DNA of 64,000 bases, from the NCBI RefSeq assembly GCF_009712605.1, contig NZ_WASO01000014.1:62001-126000 (forward strand), read 5' to 3'. The translations under genes were made by a program, and so were the position numbers. This document shows positions 8,893 to 51,697 of this stretch, piece after piece; the first letter of the stretch is position 1; each line of letters begins with the position of its first letter. Below the pieces are notes generated by a model, which worked only from the letters and a program-made list of their open reading frames with translations, was not told where the DNA came from and made no database searches. The DNA comes from Paludibacter sp. GTDB lineage: Bacteria > Bacteroidota > Bacteroidia > Bacteroidales > Paludibacteraceae.

Positions 8893-10143
8893 TTACTTTG
8901 AATCCCAATTTTCAAGATATTCGGCAATATGGAGTAAAAATTTGCCTCCCAAAGCGCCGTTCACAATCCGGTGATCATATGAGAGCGATAAAATCATTTT
9001 GTGCCGTATGGCTATCACGTCGCCATCGACAGTTTCGAGTACCGCCGGTTGTTTGACAATATAACCGACACCAAGAATAGCTACCTGCGGCTGGTTAATA
9101 ATCGGCGTTCCTGCAATATTCTTGAAAGTACCGAAATTGGTAATGGTAAACGTTCCTCCCTGGATGTCATCGACTTTCAGTTTGTTTGCACGGGCATTTC
9201 CGGCCAGAGAGTCCATTGTATGAGCCAGGCCGCTGATACTCAATTTATCTGCATCGTGCACAACGGGAACCACCAGATTGCCATCATCGAGTGCCACTGC
9301 AATGCCGATATTGATATGTTTTTTCAGAATCATACGATACCCTTCAACCGAGGCGTTGACTTGCGGATAAGCTATCAACGCTTTCGTCGTAGCTTCTACT
9401 ATTGCCGGCATATAGGTCAGGCTAATGCCTTCGTGTTTCAGGAATGAGTCCTTGTTGCGTTTACGCCATTCCACCAGTTTGGTAACATCCACCTCAACGA
9501 AGGTCGTAACATGTGGCGAGGTCTTTTTAGACAGCACCATATGGTCGGCAATGATGCGCCGTACAGGATCCATTTCCACTATTTGGTCTTCGTCGCTACT
9601 TACAACCGGTGTTTGTACCCTTTGTTCCACAACAGGTTCAGGTTTTTTCGCTACTGTAACAGAGGGAGCCTTGACTCCATCTTTCGTTTGTGTTATATAT
9701 CTCTGAATATCTTTTTTACTCAAACGGCCTAAATACCCGCTACCCTGAATCTTGTCCAACTCGTCCATAGGTATGTTTGCCTCGTTTGCCAATCGAAGGA
9801 CAACGGGCGAATACCATTTTTCTTCTTTTGTCTCGACGGGAGCGATTTCAATAGTAGCCGATGAAGTATCGGGTGATGTATCTTGCTCCCCGGTATTTTC
9901 TCCTTCTATCTGCATTACCATAACAACCGTACCGACAGAAACCGTATCGCCTTCGCTGAAAAGGATTTTCAATACCATTCCTTCCACCGGTGAGGGAATT
10001 TCGGCATTCACTTTAGCGGTAGTAACCTCAAATAGAATATCGTCTTCCTTAACGGTATCACCCACTTTGACAGACCATGCCACGATCGTTCCTTCTGTAA
10101 TACTTTCGCCCAGTTTGGGCATTTTAATATCGAATGTTGTCAT
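8893..10143 (-). CDS. Dihydrolipoamide acyltransferase (E2 component)
   Basis: The product is 416 residues. The N-terminal lipoyl domain has the modified lysine at K44 (EVTTAKVNAE). An alanine/proline/glutamate-rich linker leads to a peripheral subunit-binding domain at about 110-150 (VVLRLANEANIPMDEL), and the catalytic acyltransferase domain starts near 185. The active-site stretch near the C-terminus reads SYDHRIVNGALGG, where the family normally has H-x-x-x-D-G; here the aspartate is asparagine. E2 carries acyl groups from E1 to CoA. Its start overlaps the end of the lipoate ligase gene by 20 bp, so the two are translationally coupled. Confidence 0.92.
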   Translation of the reverse strand: MTTFDIKMPKLGESITEGTIVAWSVKVGDTVKEDDILFEVTTAKVNAEIPSPVEGMVLKILFSEGDTVSVGTVVMVMQIEGENTGEQDTSPDTSSATIEIAPVETKEEKWYSPVVLRLANEANIPMDELDKIQGSGYLGRLSKKDIQRYITQTKDGVKAPSVTVAKKPEPVVEQRVQTPVVSSDEDQIVEMDPVRRIIADHMVLSKKTSPHVTTFVEVDVTKLVEWRKRNKDSFLKHEGISLTYMPAIVEATTKALIAYPQVNASVEGYRMILKKHINIGIAVALDDGNLVVPVVHDADKLSISGLAHTMDSLAGNARANKLKVDDIQGGTFTITNFGTFKNIAGTPIINQPQVAILGVGYIVKQPAVLETVDGDVIAIRHKMILSLSYDHRIVNGALGGKFLLHIAEYLENWDSK

Positions 10144-28359: not shown

Positions 28360-31300
28360 TTATCCGATGATGTCCTTCAGAATTGGATTATCGGGATCGT
28401 TTTTATAACGTTCGATGAACTCCGAAGGTTTCATGCCGAAGAAGTCATGGAAACTGTTGGTGAAGTAGGAGTGACTTGAGAATCCTACTTTGTAGGCCAC
28501 TTCCGAAATATTCACCTCGTTGTTTAGCAACAGGAAGGCGGCCTGTTTCAAACGTATGGAACGTATCATTTCGCTGGGCGAAGTGTTTATCAGTTCCTTT
28601 AATTTCCGGTTCAGGTGTACGCGGCTCAGACCAACCTCTTCGCTCAGTTTTTCCACACTGAAATCAGAATCTTCGATATTCTTCCGTATCACCTCGATGG
28701 TTTTTTCGAGCAGGCGTTTGTCTGCAGAATTTATTTTCAGGTGTTCATAGTCATAGTCAATGGGCTGGCTGTACTTCTTCTTAATAGTTTGCCGAGCTCC
28801 TATCAATTGGACTATGTTCCGTTTCAGAATATCGATATTAAACGGTTTGGTAAGATAAGTATCGGCACCACTGTCCAATCCTTCTATAATGTTCTCGTCT
28901 TTGGTTCTGGACGACAGCATGATAATGGGAATATGGTTGGTGTTAGTATTGCTTTTTATCTTGCGACACAGCTCGTTACCATCCATTTCAGGCATCACAA
29001 TGTCGCTGATTACCACGTCCGGCAAAATGCTGGTAATAGCGTTCCATGCCGCTTTACTGCTGTCAAAACTTTCTACGTTGTATTGATCCGACAGTTCAAT
29101 GCGAAGATAGGAGAGAATGTCCTTGTCGTCATCAACAATGACAACTGTTGGCTTGCTTTTAATCTTCTTCTGTGTTTCAGCGTCTTCGGATTTTTCCAAG
29201 ATGGTAAAGTTCTCTTCGTTTCGCGACATCTTAGCCGGTTGCGAATATAAATCACCCTGCCTGCTGGTCTGGAGTTCTTTCTCCGAGAGATGATCGTAAG
29301 TGAGAGGTATCCGGATGATAAACGAGCATCCAACTTCTTCGTTTTGAGCCGAAATTGTACCGTGATGCAAATCTACCAGCTGTTTGGTAAGATGAAGGCC
29401 GATGCCGGAACCAAGGTACTCAGCCTGACTGTTTGCCTGATAAAAGCGGTCGTATATCTTGTTAATAGCTTCCTGTTTAATGCCGGGGCCGGAATCGTGA
29501 ATCTTGATTTCGAAATAATACTGTAATTCGTTGGTGGCGTTCCTGTCTTCACCAGTAATAAGCTGAACGGTGATCTTTCCTCCTTCGGGTGTGAACTTGA
29601 AGGCATTCGATAAAACATTGAAAATAATCTTGTCAAAATTACTCTGGTCTACCCAAGCTGTCAGGTGTTCGTATTCGCTTTCTAGACTGAAATCTATCTG
29701 TTTGTTTTTTGCCAGATAGTCAAACGACATCATAAGATCTTTCAGGAAGAAGACAATGTCTGTCTCCTGGAAATGCATCTGCATCTGGTTGTTGTCAATT
29801 TTACGCATATCCATCAACTGGTTGATTAGCCGTAAAATACGAGCGCTGTTACGATACATCAGATTATAGAGATCTTTCTTCTGATTATCTTTTTCTTCCA
29901 TTCTCAATTTATCAAGTGGACTCATAATGAGGGTGATGGGAGTCCTGATTTCGTGCGAAATATTGGTGAAAAACTGAAGTTTGGCTTCTTTGATATGTTC
30001 AGAATGTTCGCGTTCCACCTGCATTTGCTTGTCACGCATTTTTCGTTGTAACCTTTCGTACATTCGATAAATTACGGCACCCAAGATGATAAAATACAGC
30101 ATGTATGCCCACACGGACTGCCACCAGGGAGGTAGGATGACAATCGTTAGCTCGGTTTCATTGTAAGAGCCCTGTAAATCGGAACTACAAGCCTGAACTT
30201 TAAATGTATACGTTCCGTGGGGTAGGTTAGTATATGTAACCAGACGATTGTCGGCACCTGTTTCTTTCCATTCCTTGTCGAACCCTTCCATTTTGTATCT
30301 ATAAGTAATACTTTGAGGATGGGTAAATTCCAAGGCTACAAATTCGATTGAAAAAACGTTGTCGCTTTGTCGTAATTTAATCTCTTTTGCGTACGACACC
30401 GCTTTATCTAACTTCACCATTTTGCTCGACTCCTGGCCTACGTTTACCGATTTGTTGAATACATAAAAATTGGTGATGTATACATTCGGAACTTTGCGGG
30501 AGTGGCAAATGTTTTTGGGGTAAAAGGCGGTGACTCCGTTGATACCACCGAAATAAAGTTTTCCGTCGGCAGCTTTGAAGAAAGCTCTCCGTCTGAATTC
30601 GTCACTCTGTAAACCGTCGTAAGAGAAGAAATTAATGAATGTTTTATTTTGCAGCGAAAACTTTGCAAGACCGTGATTGGTGGTTATCCAGAGATTTTTA
30701 TTGCTATCTTCAACAATGGCATTGATGAAGTTATTAGGAAGTCCGTTGGCCATGGTATAGGTCTGTACACGGCCCGATTTTCGGTCAAAAGAAAGCAGGT
30801 TGCTATTGGATCCAATCCATAATAAACCGTTGGAATCTTCGCAAAGCGAGTATATTTTAATGTTTTCAGGAAGGCCCTTTATATTGTTATAATAGTGTAG
30901 CTTTCCGGATTTATCAATCACGTTCAAACCTTTTAGCGTTCCAACAATGAGATTGCCATTCCGGTCCGATGTCATGGTGTTGATCCAGTTGTTGCTCAGT
31001 TCCGTTTGAGTACTGTTTCCTATTGTGTTTTTATAGAGAGAAATAGCTCCGGTTGTGCCATCTATTCGGTTTAATCCTCCGTCGTATGTGCCTACCCACA
31101 TATTCCCTGAAGCATCTCCATAAAGACACATGATTTTATTACTTCCAATCTGATTTTGCTTCGGATAACGTTGGATACTCCGGCCTCCGGTGCATATGCA
31201 TAATCCGTTGAGACTGGTGCCAATCCAAATGGTTCCTTTTTTATCCTGATATAATGATGTAATTGAATTGTCAGGAAGTGACGAGTTGGATTTTGTGAAA

Positions 31301-32478
31301 TTAATAGTATTGCTTTGTCCTTTTGCTTTATAAAACAAACCGCTTCCATCGGTTCCGACCCACATGCCTCCATCTTTATCTATCAATATGGAATGAACAC
31401 AGTTGCTGTTTTCCGATTGTGTTTGCGAACTGAACCCGTAATATTCAAATTTATTGACAAAGTTGGGAATAAAATAGATTCCTTTCTGGTATAAACCGGC
31501 CCATATATTTCCTTGGTTGTCTTCCATTATGGCACTCACATGCCAGGTGCTGTTGGAGCGGTCGTTGTTTTCGCGGGGAACAGCTTCAAAACGCTCGTTT
31601 TTAGCATCAAAAAGCATTAACCCCCGATCGTTGGTTCCCACCCAAATGCGTCCTTTAGAATCGTATAGCATTGATCTTACCGCACAATTACGGGCATCCG
31701 GAGTAGTGGCTTCTCTGACATTTCCGGTGACCTCATCGTATACAAACATGCCTCTGTTGTAGCAGCCAAGGAGTATTTTACCAGTAGATTTATCTTCTGT
31801 AATGGAGGTAATATATTTCCCTTTCAACCATTGTTTGACGGGAACGCATCTGCCTTTTTGAGTACGGTACAAAATGCAGCCTTCGGTTTCTGTTCCGATC
31901 CACATGTTGTTATGAGAATCCTGAAAGGCAGATCGAATAAATGAACTTGGTTGGTTTTTTATAGTGTTCTCTATTTGAGTTACTTTGAGGGTATGCTTAT
32001 TGATACGATAAAAGCTGTGTCCTGCCGTACAAACAACAACGTTGTCTTTATCGCTGTTTAGAATAGCCGTAATATGGGGCTTTAGCAAAACATTTGTTTT
32101 TGCCTCGTAGAGCGGGAAGTTTTGGAAGCTATTGAAATTTCTGTCGTATAATTGCAATCCGCTTACAGTCCCTATCCAAAAATTGTTGCAATCGTCTTCA
32201 AAAAGAGTTTGAACGTAATTACTTTTGATGGACTTGGGGTCATCGGAATTGTGAAGAAAAGTGGAGAACTTCATCCCATCGAAGTAACTCAAGCCGTCTT
32301 CTGTTGCAATCCACACAAATCCCTTTTTGTCCTGATAGATTTGGTTTATCTGGCTGTTAGGCAGACCCGAATTTGAAGAAGTATATAAACGGGATATTTG
32401 CGCTTGTGTTTGAGAAAATGGCAAAAAGAACAATGCACTGATCATGATCAGTGGAAAAATGAGGGTGCTGCTTTTCAT
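28360..32478 (-). CDS. Hybrid two-component system regulator of the xylan locus
   Basis: The product is 1372 residues, the one-protein sensor/regulator (HTCS) used by Bacteroidota for polysaccharide loci. In order: signal peptide; a periplasmic two-propeller sensor of Reg_prop repeats (about 30-690, e.g. WIATEDGLSYFDG, WIGTNDRGL); Y_Y_Y domain (about 700-775); transmembrane helix near 790-810; HisKA with NISHEIRTPITLI (histidine near 842); HATPase; receiver with ISDIVMPEMDG (aspartate near 1160); AraC-type DNA-binding domain (about 1280-1350). It probably senses a xylan oligosaccharide and activates the genes upstream. A long inverted repeat lies just before its start codon. Confidence 0.95.
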   Translation of the reverse strand: MKSSTLIFPLIMISALFFLPFSQTQAQISRLYTSSNSGLPNSQINQIYQDKKGFVWIATEDGLSYFDGMKFSTFLHNSDDPKSIKSNYVQTLFEDDCNNFWIGTVSGLQLYDRNFNSFQNFPLYEAKTNVLLKPHITAILNSDKDNVVVCTAGHSFYRINKHTLKVTQIENTIKNQPSSFIRSAFQDSHNNMWIGTETEGCILYRTQKGRCVPVKQWLKGKYITSITEDKSTGKILLGCYNRGMFVYDEVTGNVREATTPDARNCAVRSMLYDSKGRIWVGTNDRGLMLFDAKNERFEAVPRENNDRSNSTWHVSAIMEDNQGNIWAGLYQKGIYFIPNFVNKFEYYGFSSQTQSENSNCVHSILIDKDGGMWVGTDGSGLFYKAKGQSNTINFTKSNSSLPDNSITSLYQDKKGTIWIGTSLNGLCICTGGRSIQRYPKQNQIGSNKIMCLYGDASGNMWVGTYDGGLNRIDGTTGAISLYKNTIGNSTQTELSNNWINTMTSDRNGNLIVGTLKGLNVIDKSGKLHYYNNIKGLPENIKIYSLCEDSNGLLWIGSNSNLLSFDRKSGRVQTYTMANGLPNNFINAIVEDSNKNLWITTNHGLAKFSLQNKTFINFFSYDGLQSDEFRRRAFFKAADGKLYFGGINGVTAFYPKNICHSRKVPNVYITNFYVFNKSVNVGQESSKMVKLDKAVSYAKEIKLRQSDNVFSIEFVALEFTHPQSITYRYKMEGFDKEWKETGADNRLVTYTNLPHGTYTFKVQACSSDLQGSYNETELTIVILPPWWQSVWAYMLYFIILGAVIYRMYERLQRKMRDKQMQVEREHSEHIKEAKLQFFTNISHEIRTPITLIMSPLDKLRMEEKDNQKKDLYNLMYRNSARILRLINQLMDMRKIDNNQMQMHFQETDIVFFLKDLMMSFDYLAKNKQIDFSLESEYEHLTAWVDQSNFDKIIFNVLSNAFKFTPEGGKITVQLITGEDRNATNELQYYFEIKIHDSGPGIKQEAINKIYDRFYQANSQAEYLGSGIGLHLTKQLVDLHHGTISAQNEEVGCSFIIRIPLTYDHLSEKELQTSRQGDLYSQPAKMSRNEENFTILEKSEDAETQKKIKSKPTVVIVDDDKDILSYLRIELSDQYNVESFDSSKAAWNAITSILPDVVISDIVMPEMDGNELCRKIKSNTNTNHIPIIMLSSRTKDENIIEGLDSGADTYLTKPFNIDILKRNIVQLIGARQTIKKKYSQPIDYDYEHLKINSADKRLLEKTIEVIRKNIEDSDFSVEKLSEEVGLSRVHLNRKLKELINTSPSEMIRSIRLKQAAFLLLNNEVNISEVAYKVGFSSHSYFTNSFHDFFGMKPSEFIERYKNDPDNPILKDIIG

Positions 32479-35745: not shown

Positions 35746-35897
35746 AGGTTTGATGTTTTTGAGTGAGAAAAATATTTTGATTTGCCCAAATGTCTATCGA
35801 TACATGATATCTTAGCTTTAAGTCTCTGGTAAAAATGTAAGTAACCGCAGAGACATTTTATATGGATTTAGGGTTTGCTGTTTGCCATCTTCCGTCT

Positions 35898-36065
35898 TCA
35901 AGAATCACAGCGCTTTTGTTTTAAATTATATTTTAGAAGGGCTGTAAAACAGCATATATAGTTGTTGATTGAACTTTCAATTTCAGATTTGTAGATAGGC
36001 CTCACCCAATGAACGGGGAGTTCCTTGTTCGATTGTCCGTAATAAAATCGGGCGTCGCCGAACAT
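35898..36065 (-). other. Small open frame between susD and GH43
   Basis: A 55-codon frame from ATG 36065 reads FGDARFYYGQSNKELPVHWV and ends in KQKRCDS. It is not a recognised family. Composition is protein-like at the N-terminal end. It could be a fragment of a lost gene or a small orphan. Confidence 0.25.
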
Positions 36066-36072
36066 AATATTT

Positions 36073-36237
36073 TTAATTGTGATGGAGTTTCCCCGTTACA
36101 GATATAGAGTAGGGATCTCCGGCTTTTAACGGGTCAGAAAAGGCTGACCATTTGCAGTTTGAATTGGTAATGGTTTTGTTTGCGTGTTTACCAATGGCAC
36201 AAGAGTCATTGTTTGGAGGTGTATCCAGCCCGTACGT
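36073..36237 (-). pseudogene. Remnant of a secreted protein gene C-terminus within the locus
   Basis: The minus strand is open for 54 codons and contains LDTPPNNDSCAIGKHANKTI and FSDPLKAGDPYSISVTGK. This looks like the tail of an exported esterase or glycosidase, but a stop codon and frame changes disrupt it upstream. It lies between the susD terminator and the GH43 gene, so it is probably a decayed enzyme gene of the xylan locus. Confidence 0.35.
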
Positions 36238-36384
36238 TCACACGGGAATTTTTTAAGCACCAAGCCGTCTTTTATTAGTTTGGAATTTTATCAGGGCGTT
36301 TGATGGTTATGCTTACTAACATGAGATTAAGATCAGGTAAAAAGAGCGTTTGAATTTCACGTAGAGAGGTTAGGTTTGTGATGG

Positions 36385-36423
36385 TTAGAAAAGAAGACTC
36401 TCTCCATAAAGGAAAGAGTCTTC
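36385..36423 (-). terminator. Terminator after susD
   Basis: A 9-bp stem (GAAGACTCT with AGAGTCTTC) is followed on the minus strand by TTCTTTTCT, 26 bp after the susD stop codon. It indicates that susC-susD form one unit and that GH43-GH67 have their own promoter or rely on read-through. Confidence 0.65.
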
Positions 36424-36448
36424 GTGTCTATAAAAAACAATCGTTCAA

Positions 36449-38446
36449 TTAATAACTTGGATTCTGATAAGCTGCTTTTTCAGTAGCTGTCATATCCATA
36501 CCATCTATTTGTCCTTGAGGAATTGGATCCAAATAATTTGCGGGCAAAATTGTACGTGTTACTGATTGAATCGTATGATCACCGATTGCGGTTCCACATA
36601 TTTGATAACTACCAGCAATGTCAACCCAAGTTTGCGTACGTCTTAAATCGAAGATACGATAACCTTCTCCATAATACTCACGAGAACGTTCTGCCAAAAT
36701 GTAATTGATATCTATTGTTGCTGGCGTTGCGGCTACCATAGCAGCACTGTTATCTGCAACTAATGTAGCATTTTGAGCATTGCTAAATTTCCATTTTCCG
36801 GCACGAGCACGAATTACATTGATCAGTCCTCTTGCGGTTCCATCATTTGCATAAGGCCCTGTAATGGCTGATGTTGTTGCACCTTTCACCGCAGCTTCTG
36901 CAGCTATGAAAAACAGTTCGGAGAATTTCATGATCGGGAAAGGACGAGTGCTTCCTGCATTTGGATTTCCTAGTGTAGTACCATTGTCAGTACGATATGG
37001 GCCTAACTTCCAAATGCCAGGATAAACAATTCTACTTATTGCGCTCGGTCCTATTACATAATCTGCTCTACCAGGCATTACACCAGCACCGACATTACTT
37101 ATACCGGCAGTTTTTGAAGCAGGATAAACAATACTTGGATCATCCGTGTTCAGGAATGAAAGTATTGGGGCTCCCGGTAAAACAGTCATGCCATTTGCAT
37201 TAATTAAAGATGAATTAGTAACACCACCTAAAGGCCAATTGCCATGGTAAACAGTTGTAAATGTTCCATCGTAACGAGAGTCGTTCGTCTTGTCAGCAAA
37301 GGTATTCGTAAACACACCAATAGGAGGAGCCATACGTACCCATGGACGTCCTAAGTCTTGAGTAGATGCACGTTGAACTGAACTTATACTATATGATTTG
37401 CCATCAGCCGAACTTCTGATATTTGGATAATTCCAAGTCAACATCCAGCTTGCAAAGTTGTCAGGAGCGCCACCACTACCATAAGTAAGGCTACTTACGT
37501 TATATTGTGCACTTGCTTGTGTGTGGTCTGCATAGAGCATCATTTCGTTGTTTCTATCATTTGCCCCTGCATTTACATCGTAGTATGTTGCCTGTAAGCC
37601 ATAAGATCCTGGATTAGCAATGGCAGCAGAAGCAATATTGTAAGCTTGCTGGAAATACCATGCAGCTGTTTGCCCATTGGGGTCAGTTCTGTCACATACT
37701 GGGTATGTGGGAATGTTTTTAGGATTTTGAAGCCACCAGCCGTAAGTCAGATAAGCTTTGGCCAATAACAATTGAGCAACTTGTTTGGTTACAGTTCCCG
37801 TCAGACGTTGTTTTGCCGGTAATTGGTTTACAGCTTTTATCAAATCAGGAAATATACATTTAGTATAAACCTCTGGCACTGTGTTGCGTACTGAATATCT
37901 AACAGGATTGATATTGAACTTAAGAGCTCCAGCACCCAAATCCAAAGGTACTCCGCCATATCTTTGTACTAGCAGAAAATAGTCGAATGCACGGAAAAAA
38001 TTGGCCTCAGATACCAGTGAACTTGGGATCGTGTCTGACGATCCATGTTTGCTGGCATTAACTAATGCTGCATTTTCAATAATGCCATTAGCAGTATTGA
38101 TATTAGAAAATACAGTTCCCCACAATATAGCGATTGGATAAGTTTGAGCATTAAATGTTGCTGCACCAGAATAGTCCATAGCAGTGAAGTTTCCATCTGC
38201 ACTAGCGCCCCAGGTTGCTTCATCAGTTCCGGTCTCACAAGCATTATAATAATAAGCTTGTCCGTACAAATTGCGAAGGTTAGCGTATAGTGATGTTATA
38301 CCTCCCGTAACACCTGCTTGTGTTTGGAAATATGAAGGTGTAAAAATGCTGCGTGGATCTTCTGTTAAAAGATCGGAGGAACATCCCACCAGAAACATCG
38401 AAAATAGGGCGGTTCCTATTAAAGTTTTTATATATTTACTTTTCAT
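36449..38446 (-). CDS. susD: SusD-like surface glycan-binding lipoprotein
   Basis: The product is 665 residues with a lipoprotein signal (MFLVGC, cysteine 22). It shows the SusD N-terminal helical domain (PSYFQTQAGVTGGITSLYANL), FFRAFDYFLLVQRYGGVPLD, LLLAKAYLTYGWW and the C-terminal SusD block ending in YILAERSREYYGEGYRIFDL. It caps the SusC transporter and binds xylan fragments at the cell surface. At 665 residues it is longer than the classic SusD (about 550). It begins 10 bp after susC. Confidence 0.95.
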   Translation of the reverse strand: MKSKYIKTLIGTALFSMFLVGCSSDLLTEDPRSIFTPSYFQTQAGVTGGITSLYANLRNLYGQAYYYNACETGTDEATWGASADGNFTAMDYSGAATFNAQTYPIAILWGTVFSNINTANGIIENAALVNASKHGSSDTIPSSLVSEANFFRAFDYFLLVQRYGGVPLDLGAGALKFNINPVRYSVRNTVPEVYTKCIFPDLIKAVNQLPAKQRLTGTVTKQVAQLLLAKAYLTYGWWLQNPKNIPTYPVCDRTDPNGQTAAWYFQQAYNIASAAIANPGSYGLQATYYDVNAGANDRNNEMMLYADHTQASAQYNVSSLTYGSGGAPDNFASWMLTWNYPNIRSSADGKSYSISSVQRASTQDLGRPWVRMAPPIGVFTNTFADKTNDSRYDGTFTTVYHGNWPLGGVTNSSLINANGMTVLPGAPILSFLNTDDPSIVYPASKTAGISNVGAGVMPGRADYVIGPSAISRIVYPGIWKLGPYRTDNGTTLGNPNAGSTRPFPIMKFSELFFIAAEAAVKGATTSAITGPYANDGTARGLINVIRARAGKWKFSNAQNATLVADNSAAMVAATPATIDINYILAERSREYYGEGYRIFDLRRTQTWVDIAGSYQICGTAIGDHTIQSVTRTILPANYLDPIPQGQIDGMDMTATEKAAYQNPSY

Positions 38447-38456
38447 TGTTTATTAT

Positions 38457-41400
38457 TTAAAAGGTTACATTGATACCCAATAAGTATGTGTGAGTTGTAG
38501 GGGTGTTGAAACCTACAGTCAATATACGATGGTTGTAAGATGATACCGCTGAATTTGAATCGCCATACGAGTTGGTTTCCGGATCCATACCTGATTCTTT
38601 GTGGTAAGGAGAGAAGAGAACGAATGGGTTTTGTACAGTTCCATAAACACGTAGTTTTTCAATTCCGGCATACTTCAGCCATTTTTGTGTAAAATCATAT
38701 CCAAGTGTGATTGTACGTACTTTAGCATAAGATGCACTAAAGTAGCCCAGCAATTGTCCGTATTTGGGATTATCGCCACTTAACGGTCCGGCAGGATTTG
38801 GGAATGATGCATTTGTATTTGTTGGAGTCCAGTAATCTACCTTAATATTTCCTCTACGTCCTGTCAGCATATTAAGATAACCGGCCGATCCATAAAGTGT
38901 ACTGATAAGGGTTCCTCCGCATTGGAAACTACCAACTAGGCTCAAGTCAAAACCTTTGTAAGCTACGCGAGTGTGGAAACCACCTTGAAGATTTGGATCA
39001 AGATTTTGAACTTGCATGTCTGCAGCTCCAATTGCTCTTGTTGGTGAGCCATCCGCATTGTAAGTGCCGGTGTATTGAACCTTGATCATACCAGCAACTC
39101 CACCAGGTTCCAATGTTTGTAAATATTTATAATCTTTATCTGAGGTGTTCCAGAGGCCTACCTTTTTGTAATCGTAAATACTATTAATAGAATGTCCTAC
39201 AAACCATCCATTGCCTTTATCTTCTGTTTGACCAGAAGCAAGAGATGTAATCTTATTAACATTGTGATACATATTCACGCCTAATTCCCATGTCCAACCA
39301 TGGTAATTTTCTAAAATGACACCATTGAGTGAAAGTTCAAAACCCTTGTTTTGAGTGGAACCTACATTTGCAGTATAACTACCAACTCCCGTAGTGGAGG
39401 GTAAGTTAACTCCCAATAACAGATTTTTGGTATCTGTGATATAATATTCAAAAGTACCGGTTAAGCGATTCTTTAAGACAGCAAAGTCTGCACCAAAATT
39501 CTCTGTTTTAGAAAATTCCCATCCTAATTTTGGATTTGGTAGTGTATTTACATAGTAACCTGTTAGATAAGAAGTTCCAAAATTGTAAGGTGAGGTAGCT
39601 AACGATCCCAGTGTAGAATATGCATTTACAGCTTGATTTGACGTTTCACCATAACCAGCACGAACTTTCAGTTCATCAAGCCAGGTAATATTTTTCATAA
39701 ACGATTCTTTATGGATATTCCATCCCATAGACACAGCAGGATATGTATGCCACTGATGTCCGGAAGCTAATCTTGAAGAACCGTCGGAACGACCTGTAAC
39801 ACTTATCATATAACGATCGTCGTAAGAATACATTACACGACCCATCCATGATTCTAACCCCCATACAGTATATCCTTGATAACTAGGGTTCATTGTTATG
39901 TCCGAAGCGGCGCTTTGTCCCAAGTTATAAAACTGCAAGTTGTCTGCAGGTATATTTTGAGCGGAAACATAGGTGCTATTGTAAAAATTCTGTTCGGCAG
40001 AGAACATTGCTACTGCATTTACTCTATGTTTCTTCCATGCACGATCATAAGTAAACATGTTTTCAATCGCCCAATCTGTGTCATAAGAGTTACTGAGACT
40101 TGCAGATGATACTGTGTTCGACGTTGAGCTCATAACACCAACACCTGTATATGTACCTGCATTAGTAAAATTGAAGTTAGCTCCAATATTGGTGCGATAT
40201 TTCAGACCTTCTACACCAGGAATATTTATTTCGCCATAGAAAGAGTTGTAAGAGCCAAATCCCTTTTTTTGATCTTTCCATGTATCTCCCAAATTGTTTA
40301 TACCACTTTTTGTATATACATACTGATTGTCCATTACCATATTGACAATTCTTTTCAGAGAGCCATCAGTATTATATGGATTGGCAATTGGCGACATGCT
40401 TAATACCCCATACATTCCTAAGCTTGCGCCATTAGTGATGTTGAAATTAGTGTTTGTGGTAAAGCCTACATGTATGTATTTTCCAATACCCTGATCTAAT
40501 GAACCGCGAATTGCATAACGGGTGTAGTTTTGACCCGGTATAGCAGCTTGGCTTGTAAAGTAATTAGCACCAAATTTGTAGCTTCCTTTTTCGTTACCAC
40601 CAGTGACATTCACATCGTGGCTTTGTGTCATAGCGGTAGTGTAAAATAATGATTGCCAATTGGTATTTACATCATTAGATTCGTCTGTTCCGTTTGTTGT
40701 ATATCTGCCGGAAGCTTTACGTAGGGCAACAAATTCCGATCCATTCATCATAGGATAATAAATAGCTTTTCCTACACCAACGTAACCATTATAGCTAATT
40801 TGTGCATTGCTACCTTTAACACCTTTATTAGTTGTTATCAAAATAACACCGTTAGCACCACGTGATCCATAGATAGCTGTAGCCGATGCATCTTTCAAAA
40901 TATCAATGCTTTTGATATCATTAGGACTGATGTCGCTAAGAGTACCAGAGAAAGGAATTCCGTCGAGTACGATAAGTGGGTCATTGGTAGCAGTCAATGA
41001 ACGTGTACCACGAATACGAATCTGTAATGTAGCTCCCGGATGCGTATCTGTTTGCTCCAAATCTACACCGGCAACACGACCTTGCAATGCATTCGTCACG
41101 TTAGCTGCCGGAATTTCTTTGAGTGCATTCCCATTTACGGAAGCTACAGATCCTGTAACGGCTTCTTTGCGTTGAGTACCGTAACCGACTACAACGACTT
41201 CACTCAAAGCTTTCGTATCTTCGGCCAATGTAACGTTTATGACCGTTTTTCCGCTTACACTAATTAACTGAGATGTGTATCCAACGAAAGAAAATTCCAA
41301 TTTAGCATTAGAAGGAACCTGGATAGAGAACTTGCCGTCAACATCAGTAATGGTTCCTGTGGATGAACCGTGAATTCTGACATTGACCCCCGGAAGAGTA

Positions 41401-41522
41401 GCACTTGATGCATCCTTAACAGTCCCTTTGACCGTTATCGTCTGCCCAAACACTGAGATTGAAAACAAAAGCAGCAGGAATAAAATCCCGGGTGCTCTGA
41501 GACAACTAGAAGTTTGTTTCAT
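38457..41522 (-). CDS. susC: SusC-like TonB-dependent oligosaccharide transporter
   Basis: The product is 1021 residues from ATG 41522 (MKQTSSCLRAPG); 26 open codons upstream are not used because the signal peptide begins here and ends near SVFG. A CarboxypepD-like N-terminal extension (GTVKDASSATLPGVNVRI) leads to the TonB box EVVVVGYGTQ, then the plug with LQGRVAGVDLEQ and IYGSRGANGVILITTNKG, then the barrel ending in LLGINVTF. It imports xylo-oligosaccharides handed over by SusD. A promoter box and paired motifs lie upstream. Confidence 0.95.
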   Translation of the reverse strand: MKQTSSCLRAPGILFLLLLFSISVFGQTITVKGTVKDASSATLPGVNVRIHGSSTGTITDVDGKFSIQVPSNAKLEFSFVGYTSQLISVSGKTVINVTLAEDTKALSEVVVVGYGTQRKEAVTGSVASVNGNALKEIPAANVTNALQGRVAGVDLEQTDTHPGATLQIRIRGTRSLTATNDPLIVLDGIPFSGTLSDISPNDIKSIDILKDASATAIYGSRGANGVILITTNKGVKGSNAQISYNGYVGVGKAIYYPMMNGSEFVALRKASGRYTTNGTDESNDVNTNWQSLFYTTAMTQSHDVNVTGGNEKGSYKFGANYFTSQAAIPGQNYTRYAIRGSLDQGIGKYIHVGFTTNTNFNITNGASLGMYGVLSMSPIANPYNTDGSLKRIVNMVMDNQYVYTKSGINNLGDTWKDQKKGFGSYNSFYGEINIPGVEGLKYRTNIGANFNFTNAGTYTGVGVMSSTSNTVSSASLSNSYDTDWAIENMFTYDRAWKKHRVNAVAMFSAEQNFYNSTYVSAQNIPADNLQFYNLGQSAASDITMNPSYQGYTVWGLESWMGRVMYSYDDRYMISVTGRSDGSSRLASGHQWHTYPAVSMGWNIHKESFMKNITWLDELKVRAGYGETSNQAVNAYSTLGSLATSPYNFGTSYLTGYYVNTLPNPKLGWEFSKTENFGADFAVLKNRLTGTFEYYITDTKNLLLGVNLPSTTGVGSYTANVGSTQNKGFELSLNGVILENYHGWTWELGVNMYHNVNKITSLASGQTEDKGNGWFVGHSINSIYDYKKVGLWNTSDKDYKYLQTLEPGGVAGMIKVQYTGTYNADGSPTRAIGAADMQVQNLDPNLQGGFHTRVAYKGFDLSLVGSFQCGGTLISTLYGSAGYLNMLTGRRGNIKVDYWTPTNTNASFPNPAGPLSGDNPKYGQLLGYFSASYAKVRTITLGYDFTQKWLKYAGIEKLRVYGTVQNPFVLFSPYHKESGMDPETNSYGDSNSAVSSYNHRILTVGFNTPTTHTYLLGINVTF

Positions 41523-41611
41523 GATTAAAAGAATTAAAGAATTGATTGGATTGTTTGTATGTAAACCTCGTTTATCTAAACTAAAGCTAAGAACACACAA
41601 TTTTGACTATG

Positions 41612-41619
41612 CAAAACTA
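41612..41619 (-). promoter_or_regulatory. -7 box (TAGTTTTG) of susC
   Basis: This matches TAnnTTTG on the minus strand, 89 bp upstream of the susC ATG, with no clear -33 box at the normal spacing, which suits an activator-dependent promoter. Confidence 0.45.
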
Positions 41620-41666
41620 GTCTTGAATTAAAAAAACGTTGAAATTATAGCAACATCTTCTGGCAA

Positions 41667-41717
41667 TTTTGTTACATCAGTTTTAAATATGATTCATTTA
41701 CTGTTGTTTTTGATACG
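41667..41717 (-). promoter_or_regulatory. Paired TTTTGnTACA motifs, candidate regulator operator (susC)
   Basis: TTTTGTTACA at 41667-41676 and TTTTGATACG at 41708-41717 lie in the same direction, start to start 41 bp apart. The same arrangement at 51195-51245 controls the other main transcript of the locus. The rest of the 446 bp between susC and the GH2 gene is AT-rich and I see nothing else in it. Confidence 0.5.
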
Positions 41718-50290: not shown

Positions 50291-51106
50291 TTACACTCCC
50301 GAATAGGCATCGAAGCCCCCGTCAACGATGATGTTTTGTCCGTTAACGAAACGTGAAGCATCGCTACACAACCATTGAATGGTTCCATTCAGTTCATCGG
50401 CAACGCCCATGCGACCGAAAGGAGTGGAATTGATGATTTTATGTCCGCGGGGAGTCAAAGAACCGTCTTCGTTGGTCAGTAAGGTTCGGTTTTGTTCTGT
50501 CAGGAAGAAACCCGGGCAAATAGAGTTGACTCTGATTTTATCACCATATTTCTGAGAATATTCCACGGCCAGCCATTTTGTAAAGTTCTGAATAGCACTT
50601 TTAGCAGCAGAATAACCTATAACACGTGTCATAGGGCGAGCAACGGTTGCCGATGTGAAGTTGATAATATTGCCTTCTTTGCGGTCTACCATTTCTTTTG
50701 TGAAAACGCGGGTAGGGTAGATGGTTCCATAAAGATTCAGATCGATTACCTGACGTAAGTGCTCTAAGTCAAGGTCGAAAAATGATTGTTCAGGAAGAAT
50801 GTTGGCTCCGGCACGGTTTCCACCGGCAGCATTGATAAGAACGTCTACAGGTCCGAATTTTGACTTGATTTCGTCATGATTTTGTTGCAGAATATCAATG
50901 TTGAGAACATCAGACACTAAAAATAAGGCCTCGTGGCCTTCTGCTTTGATTTCGTTCTCAAGGGCTTTGCCTTTTACAGCATCACGTCCCAAAATAGCAA
51001 CTTTTGCCCCCTGGGCTGCCAGATGTTTACTGATAGAACTGCCAAGTACGCCAGTCCCGCCGGTGATTACGATCACTTTACCGGCAATGTTGAATTCATT
51101 TTTCAT
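50291..51106 (-). CDS. uxuB: SDR-family D-mannonate oxidoreductase (fructuronate reductase)
   Basis: The product is 271 residues from ATG 51106. The Rossmann glycine motif is TGGTGVLGSS, NAAGGNRAG is the second motif, and the catalytic YSAAKSA carries the tyrosine and lysine. Paired with UxuA, it most likely interconverts fructuronate and mannonate, taking the place of the unrelated long-chain UxuB of E. coli. The symbol reflects that role, not homology to E. coli UxuB. It is the first gene of a five-gene transcript (SDR, uxuA, GH115, GH30, GH2). Confidence 0.9.
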   Translation of the reverse strand: MKNEFNIAGKVIVITGGTGVLGSSISKHLAAQGAKVAILGRDAVKGKALENEIKAEGHEALFLVSDVLNIDILQQNHDEIKSKFGPVDVLINAAGGNRAGANILPEQSFFDLDLEHLRQVIDLNLYGTIYPTRVFTKEMVDRKEGNIINFTSATVARPMTRVIGYSAAKSAIQNFTKWLAVEYSQKYGDKIRVNSICPGFFLTEQNRTLLTNEDGSLTPRGHKIINSTPFGRMGVADELNGTIQWLCSDASRFVNGQNIIVDGGFDAYSGV

Positions 51107-51159: not shown

Positions 51160-51167
51160 CAAAATTA
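51160..51167 (-). promoter_or_regulatory. -7 box (TAATTTTG) of the uxuB-uxuA-GH115-GH30-GH2 transcript
   Basis: This matches TAnnTTTG on the minus strand, 53 bp before the start codon. No good -33 box is seen; the paired motifs begin 28 bp upstream. Confidence 0.45.
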
Positions 51168-51194: not shown

Positions 51195-51245
51195 TTTTGA
51201 TACATATGGTTTCAAAATAGTTTCTCTGCTGCTACTTTTGATACA
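51195..51245 (-). promoter_or_regulatory. Paired TTTTGATACA motifs, candidate regulator operator (uxuB promoter)
   Basis: Two identical TTTTGATACA decamers start at 51195 and 51236, 41 bp apart and in the same orientation, just upstream of the -7 box. The same spacing occurs before susC. Direct repeats close to the promoter suit an AraC-type activator such as the locus regulator. Confidence 0.55.
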
Positions 51246-51697
51246 GGGAGTATAACTATCGAAACATTTTCACATCTAAACCGAATGCTGTCACATTGTT
51301 GAAGCATACAAGTATTAGACAGGAAGCAACAGGCTCAGGGTAGTCTCATATTTATTTTATCGGTATGAAACAATGCAATCTTTGATTCATTCGTGTCCGA
51401 TCACGGATTTCAATAAGCTGTTGTGTGGATATGGTGAACGATTAAAAGGAAAATAAAAACACGTCTGTTACCAGAAGAAATCTTCGGCAGATGGGAAAAT
51501 ATTAGCGACTTCAAAGATAGCAAGATGTTACCGTCTTTCAATGTGTATAAGACGACTTCTTTACACATTTTTGATACAGGCGATTACAGAAGAGATTCCT
51601 GTTTCAGGATTTAGTTGCATATTGCATGCATAAGTTGGTGAAATACTTGATTTTCCTCACCCTATTCCCCGCAATTCCACACTTTTCTACAATGCGG
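51246..51697. other. Intergenic stretch with one further TTTTGATACA
   Basis: I find no gene in these 450 bp between the xylan locus and the small secreted protein. One more TTTTGATACA lies at 51569-51578 without a partner at 41 bp. Confidence 0.5.

Follow-up and report, generated by a model that had tools for sequence, protein, structure and literature searches.

Paired decamers before a glucuronoxylan-type locus of Paludibacter sp. as part of a predicted four-half-site operator for a hybrid two-component regulator

Two identical decamers placed 41 bp apart before the first promoter of a glucuronoxylan-type locus in Paludibacter sp. raise the question of which protein reads them and whether the pair is the unit that is read. 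The window, i.e., the whole analysed stretch of 64,000 nucleotides (contig NZ_WASO01000014.1, positions 62,001 to 126,000), encodes in order of transcription a uxuB-like dehydrogenase, uxuA, GH115, GH30, GH2, susC, susD, GH43, GH67, and a hybrid two-component regulator (HTCS), which is composed of Reg_prop propeller repeats, Y_Y_Y, HisKA, HATPase, receiver, and AraC-type helix-turn-helix domains according to Pfam. GH30 gave no Pfam match and was recognized as a xylanase by its match to PDB entry 1nof (E 1.4e-77). Alignment with relatives places the uxuB start at ATG 51106, and susC probably starts at ATG 41522, the listed TTG 41600 probably being too far upstream. The original prediction regarded the decamer pair as a candidate operator for the HTCS.

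The locus itself shows several further features. The susC and susD genes (36449-41600) share only about 70% and 68% identity with those of the related genome G033, whereas the other locus genes are 88-98% identical (GH43 98%, uxuB 98.5%, HTCS 97%); the susCD transporter pair is evolving, or being exchanged, much more rapidly than the genes around it. Between susD and GH43 lies an interval of about 700 bp (35746-36448) that contains no open reading frame of 100 aa, while the equivalent interval in G078 measures about 3.3 kb; the 700-bp interval may contain the remains of a lost gene. The GH115 homolog of G114 (contig C53, L155) contains one in-frame TGA, indicating a pseudogene or an assembly error.

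Regarding the pair, TTTTGATACA occurs twice on the same strand, at 51195-51204 and 51236-51245, with a start-to-start distance of 41 bp; the locus genes lie on the minus strand, and the coding-strand form before uxuB is TGTATCAAAA. Between the nearer copy and the -7 box TAATTTTG (51167-51160, minus strand) there are 27 bases. The lone copies of TTTTGATACA at 2347 and 51569, cited in the original prediction as a sign that the decamer alone is not specific, are present as well. The four exact matches in 64 kb compare with 0.48 expected, and none of 100 shuffles reached four. Before susC, a relaxed pair (GTATCAAAA / GTAACAAAA, at 41708-41716 and 41667-41675) is also spaced by 41 bp; the original prediction of an identical arrangement is correct with regard to this spacing, whereas the -7 box is at a different distance because the pair lies one box further upstream. 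Across the whole genome of 3,695,992 bases (3.70 Mb), the relaxed pattern GTANCAAAAN{30,34}GTANCAAAA has two matches, both within the locus, namely at the uxuB and susC promoters, and its reversed-control pattern has none. The observation of paired decamers is confirmed as real.

The strict pair was found in seven of 300 genomes of the family, with no match for the reversed control. Four of these belong to the genus and carry the pair at uxuB at exactly 41 bp; the remaining three have other spacings and no glycan context, and were taken as chance matches (G018, 44 bp, between lipocalin and endonuclease genes; G256, 42 bp, next to a gene that lacks a Pfam family; G191, 40 bp, within an AAA-domain gene). 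Many spaced pairs at unrelated genes, which had been named beforehand as adverse to an operator, are absent as far as tightly matching pairs are concerned. When up to three mismatches were allowed at a spacing of exactly 41 bp, six pairs were found in the Paludibacter genome itself (control 0) and 26 in the eight genomes of the genus set, compared with eight for the reversed control. Loosely lettered 41-bp pairs alone are therefore unspecific, and their presence elsewhere is what speaks for regarding the decamers as chance repeats in AT-rich intergenic DNA.

Comparison of the promoters among seven species revealed that each contains four half-sites in direct orientation, A-B-C-D, with the core TGTnTC and spacings of 21, 20, and 21 bp (Table 1). 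This spacing was observed in 13 of 13 promoters, and a -7 box, predicted by its match to TAnnTTTG, follows D after 26 or 27 bases in all of them; the 13 promoters consist of a first set of 12 and a thirteenth found later (uxuB of G121). The visible pair corresponds to B and D at uxuB and to A and C at susC. As the pair is made of every second member of a 21/20/21-bp array, its 41 bp do not represent the interval within a single dimer site.

Table 1. Coordinates of the half-sites, -7 boxes, and genes discussed in the text (positions within the window)
Feature	Sequence	Position	Strand	Remark
uxuB half-site A	TGTTTCGATA	51257..51266	-	21 bp before B; G2 and C6 kept in 7/7 species
uxuB half-site B	TGTATCAAAA	51236..51245	-	upstream copy of the original prediction; exact in 4 species, drifted in 3
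uxuB half-site C	AGAAACTATT	51216..51225	-	weak; TGTGTCTACT and TGTGTTCTAT in relatives
uxuB half-site D	TGTATCAAAA	51195..51204	-	nearer copy; ends 27 bases before -7 box in 7/7 species
-7 box of the uxuB-uxuA-GH115-GH30-GH2 unit	TAATTTTG	51160..51167	-	TAnnTTTG match; fixed distance from D
susC half-site A	CGTATCAAAA	41708..41717	-	
susC half-site B	TGAATCATAT	41687..41696	-	21 bp from A; TGACTCATAT / TGGATCAATT in relatives
susC half-site C	TGTAACAAAA	41667..41676	-	
susC half-site D	TGTTGCTATA	41646..41655	-	weak; 21 bp from C; 26 bases before -7 box
susC -7 box (predicted)	TAGTTTTG	41612..41619	-	26 bases after D
HTCS, presumed binder		28360..32478	-	Pfam
uxuB-like short-chain dehydrogenase		50291..51106	-	first gene of downstream unit; Pfam adh_short
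susC-like TonB-dependent receptor		38457..41522	-	Pfam Plug / CarbopepD_reg_2

The lattice was recovered by offset scans. A scan of 185 offsets from the distal copy at uxuB in four diverged species gave the best means at +41 and 0, followed by -21; at susC, again in four species, the best offsets were 0 and +41, then +21, with +62 next and tied with three unrelated offsets. With the -7 box as the sole anchor, the best-scoring offsets were -77, -98, -36 (with the neighbours -78 and -37), and -57, i.e., the lattice. Since MAFFT aligned the arrays strong box to strong box, scripts were used to fix the register relative to the -7 box.

The letters of the half-sites provide a further line of evidence. 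Among 36 half-sites from nine representative promoters, G2 is present in 36, C6 in 35, T1 in 31, and an AAAA tail in 10, counts that are not independent because the species are related and their promoters are of shared descent. In the 158 columns covering these nine promoters, G is invariant only at columns 1, 22, 42, and 63, which are G2 of each box, and C occurs in at least eight of nine only at columns 5, 26, 46, and 67, which are C6 of each box. An invariant A is found for boxes A, B, and C at columns 15, 36, and 56, about one turn downstream of these C6 positions. The weakest box is C of uxuB, which matches the consensus, originally derived from the visible pair, at 4 of 10 positions in this genome (3-6 of 10 among the promoters); it rests on G2, C6, and the spacing, G2 being kept throughout and C6 in all but G104. 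The half-site letters would fit an AraC-type domain reading two neighbouring grooves, with two helix-turn-helix contacts per monomer. Bending of the promoter DNA by phased A-tracts, with no specific protein reading the decamers, would suit the AAAA ends of the strongest boxes and a period near two helix turns; however, AAAA is scarce among the half-sites while G2 and C6 are nearly universal, a pattern that largely refutes this explanation and leaves it very improbable.

The original prediction pictured the two strong decamers as the contacts of one HTCS dimer spanning 41 bp, in which case the weak boxes would be incidental. Consistent with this, the strongest boxes in G000, G033, and G114 are 41 bp apart, namely B and D at uxuB and A and C at susC, and the same is true of B and D at uxuB in G078. 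A single dimer over this distance is nevertheless unlikely because the boxes in between, like those beside the pair, keep G2 and C6. Moreover, two further promoters of G104 contain TGAATCAAAA, AGTATCAAAA, and TGTTACAA at 21 and 20 bp, where the neighbouring boxes A and B are both strong at a distance of only 21 bp. The pair takes two registers relative to the -7 box, whereas the four-box array takes one, and the published HTCS motifs, as far as the available text of that study describes them, are 21-bp repeats (PMC3878776). The four-box array is thus preferred here to the 41-bp pair as the unit.

The array is conserved within the genus. The pair before the orthologous uxuB genes is exact in four species and kept with drifted letters in three more; arrays precede uxuB in seven species and susC in four, while none was found upstream of susC in G060. 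In G104, one of the two extra arrays lies directly before GH2, and the other lies 925 bp before the next long open reading frame, a susC-like gene that was counted as its target. Orthologs of the HTCS are present in G033 (97% identical), G114 (96%), G078 (77%), and G104 (60%), and partially in G060 and G121 (about 69%), and the helix-turn-helix domain is 80-99% identical across the array-bearing genomes. In G093, only a partial match of 36% was found and no HTCS ortholog. Because neither many tightly spaced pairs at unrelated genes nor a loss of the pair in orthologous loci was observed, the candidate operator for the HTCS stands by comparative evidence. The original prediction is thus partly supported, being right in direction and wrong in unit, as the unit is the array of four half-sites.

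Binding by another protein, such as a hexuronate regulator of uxuAB, a second AraC-type protein, or two alternating proteins, was also considered, given that uxuB and uxuA are hexuronate genes and that two binders could explain the unequal strength of the boxes. This alternative would be even less probable than a single dimer over 41 bp, since the presence of the array tracks the HTCS ortholog rather than uxuB itself: similar arrays lie before susC and, in G104, before GH2; the paralogous uxuB genes at L206-L208 (in G060, G093, and G104) lack it; and it is absent from G093, which lacks the ortholog. The locus, in addition, encodes an HTCS with a conserved helix-turn-helix domain.

A sequence profile built from 12 arrays served as a test of prediction on the eight genus genomes, in which the 12 training arrays return by construction. 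A new match in G121 (contig C51, E 2.7e-7) proved to be a uxuB promoter with four boxes and a -7 box 27 bases after D. Another in the same genome (C269, E 0.002) has three boxes cut by the contig end and lies about 2 kb from a GH30 homolog, as read by eye. In the Paludibacter genome itself, only two sites reached E<1e-10, the next being at E 0.03, and the regulon predicted by the lattice with the -7 template would consist of two promoters. G093, without an HTCS ortholog, yielded no array (best E 0.275). Among 120 family genomes, searched with stricter filters in a set for which G121 was not drawn, no site outside the genus was better than E 1e-4, the weak matches there being G002 (E 1.2e-4) and G103 (E 3.1e-4). 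Conservation in seven species, the fixed distance to the -7 box, and the retrieval of an unseen array by the profile refute chance repeats for the four-box array, for which such an origin is hardly credible.

Several other candidates were examined and rejected. The lone copy at 51569 scored 7, 0, 10, and 3 of 10 at the four box positions and is not a further operator; a weak partner, TGCAACTAAA, lies 41 bp off on the same strand (51569-51619), without a four-box array. The weak profile match at G104:C1:944456 (E 1.4e-4) contains no four-box array. Among the six loose pairs of the Paludibacter genome, one before an OPT transporter and one in the wrong orientation beside a PPDK gene were taken as background. 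The same applies to a third (L189:4210-4260), which has no four-box array and no -7 box at 25-28; it is located 45 bp before the ATG of a gene for 269 aa without a Pfam family and is kept in G114. In G121, four loose matches (C53:412-626) form one local 41-bp tandem repeat with TGTAnCAAAA-like words, for which no link to an operator was seen.

Taken together, the paired decamers probably belong to a 72-bp operator made up of four half-sites, of which they are two, and two HTCS dimers bound there would activate the uxuB unit and susCD. According to this model, built on sequence comparison, xylan-derived oligosaccharides would bind the periplasmic sensor of the HTCS, which would then phosphorylate its own receiver. 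Two HTCS dimers may occupy A-B and C-D next to each other, along one face of the helix, where the half-sites would be read as direct repeats of TGTnTC(n)A with D ending 26-27 bp before the -7 box. Each dimer site would combine one strong and one weak half, the strong ones being B and D at uxuB and A and C at susC, which would explain why a 41-bp pair is visible to the eye. The proximal dimer may touch RNA polymerase where a -33 element would lie, so that transcription of uxuB-uxuA-GH115-GH30-GH2 and susCD would be activated. In class II activation by AraC-type proteins, the proximal half-site adjoins or overlaps the upstream element of the core promoter. The end of D fits this position, and the contact with the polymerase is putative. 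At araBAD, AraC likewise uses directly repeated half-sites with a 21-bp spacing adjacent to the core promoter, but with one proximal dimer site and a distant loop site.

Related bacteria seem to use arrays of the same layout before other sugar-digestion genes. The HTCS of a Bacteroides/Phocaeicola group is only about 32% identical, and its gene is followed by GH31 (3/3 loci, the only ones tested by Pfam) and GH2 (1/1). Of 16 loci of this type, 15 intergenic stretches were extracted and 12 aligned. The aligned promoters share the blocks TAACAAA..ACC, GAAACAT, ATCAAA...CC, and CAACAT, followed by TAnnTTT. The distance between the cores of blocks 1 and 2 is 22 in 12 of 12, and that between blocks 3 and 4 is 21 in 11 and 22 in one, while the middle distance ranges between 21 and 23; two dimers would be expected to give such rigid outer pairs around a variable middle. 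The last core lies 34-35 bases from the -7 box, compared with 33-34 in the Paludibacter-like arrays. When this layout was expressed as a pattern, 16 of the 80 fetched loci matched it; the figure measures spread and not significance because the pattern was derived from the aligned set. L126 has the same array as this group; L091 has similar blocks and, like L108 and L112, does not match the pattern.

Closer relatives were also surveyed. Of 11 fetched family loci with an HTCS about 40% alike, nine were scanned (L193-L198, L200, L201, and L203), L199 and L202 being left out at only about 1.1-1.2 kb each. In L203, from another genus of the family with an HTCS about 38% alike, a good candidate array lies between the HTCS gene and susC, with the boxes TGTATCAAAA, TGAAACAATT, TGTAACAAAT, and TGTATTAATT at 22/20/21 and TATGTTTG 27 bases later, the last box and the -7 box being read by eye. 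The scan for the lattice plus a -7 box gave weaker candidates in L196, L198, and L200, no array in L193-L195, L197, and L201, and none in four control stretches (L189-L191 and L239). Nine Prevotella HTCS loci showed no clear layout; their target promoters may lie outside the stretches viewed. Upstream of five Prevotella HTCS genes (L067, at 9615-9973, L069, L071, L078, and L143), GTTACAT-type words are repeated before TAnnTTTG, and further upstream there is a conserved stretch ending in GTTTGTTTTGTAAC, followed by a hairpin.

On the basis of the Bacteroides-type promoters, the 16 of 80 loci, the L203 array, and the three weaker family candidates, it is conceivable, with a likelihood slightly short of even, that the general operator format of HTCS activators in Bacteroidota consists of four half-sites phased by about 21 bp and placed 26-27 bp upstream of the -7 box, that the regulator acts as a pair of dimers, and that the 21-bp pair described in the literature covers half of the true site. 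If so, two membrane-bound kinase dimers would bring four DNA-binding domains to one promoter. Among the glycan switches of Bacteroidota, HTCSs form a major class, yet little is known about how a membrane-tethered regulator is seated at its promoter. An array of four boxes whose distance to the -7 box is fixed offers exact, testable positions for two dimers and bears on the number of regulator molecules per promoter, and the box lattice with the -7 box would provide a search template for HTCS regulons in genomes without expression data.

The available accounts of HTCSs allow a comparison with known systems. The receiver-DNA-binding fragments of BT4124 and BT4663 bind promoters of susCD homologs in a phosphorylation-dependent manner, and the DNA-binding domain is restrained by an S/CHIP loop (Gao et al. 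2024, PMC11253607); the receiver loop of the present HTCS reads NHIP, whereas that of most Bacteroides HTCSs reads S/CHIP. BT0366 shifts the promoters of its own locus (PMC5061871), and HTCSs have been reported to bind as a dimer (PMC6874557). The accounts of BT4124, BT4663, and BT0366, in their available text, describe no half-site layout or -7 distance (PMC11253607, PMC5061871). Neither a four-half-site HTCS operator nor a fixed -7 distance is described in the available text of PMC3878776, PMC12125979, PMC10766802, PMC6874557, PMC5061871, and PMC11253607, a negative that, beyond these papers, covers titles and opening lines of abstracts in the open literature and is no proof of absence from print. 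SusR-like sites, 67 or 77 bp apart in the available text of PMC3878776, are likewise widely spaced direct repeats before glycan genes; they differ from the 21/20/21 spacing found here, and SusR has another DNA-binding domain. The closest known counterparts are the HTCS operators of Bacteroides, predicted as direct repeats with an average spacing of 21 bp, from which dimers two helix turns apart were inferred (Ravcheev et al. 2013, PMC3878776, available text). The present arrays share with these operators the direct repeats of about 21 bp, the conservation upstream of glycan genes, and the AraC-type HTCS in the locus, but occur in a different genus and a glucuronoxylan-type locus, and comprise four half-sites at 21/20/21 bp with a fixed 26-27 bp to the -7 box instead of exactly two conserved sites. 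Compared with the published 21-bp pair, an HTCS operator with four half-sites, as predicted here, would be new.
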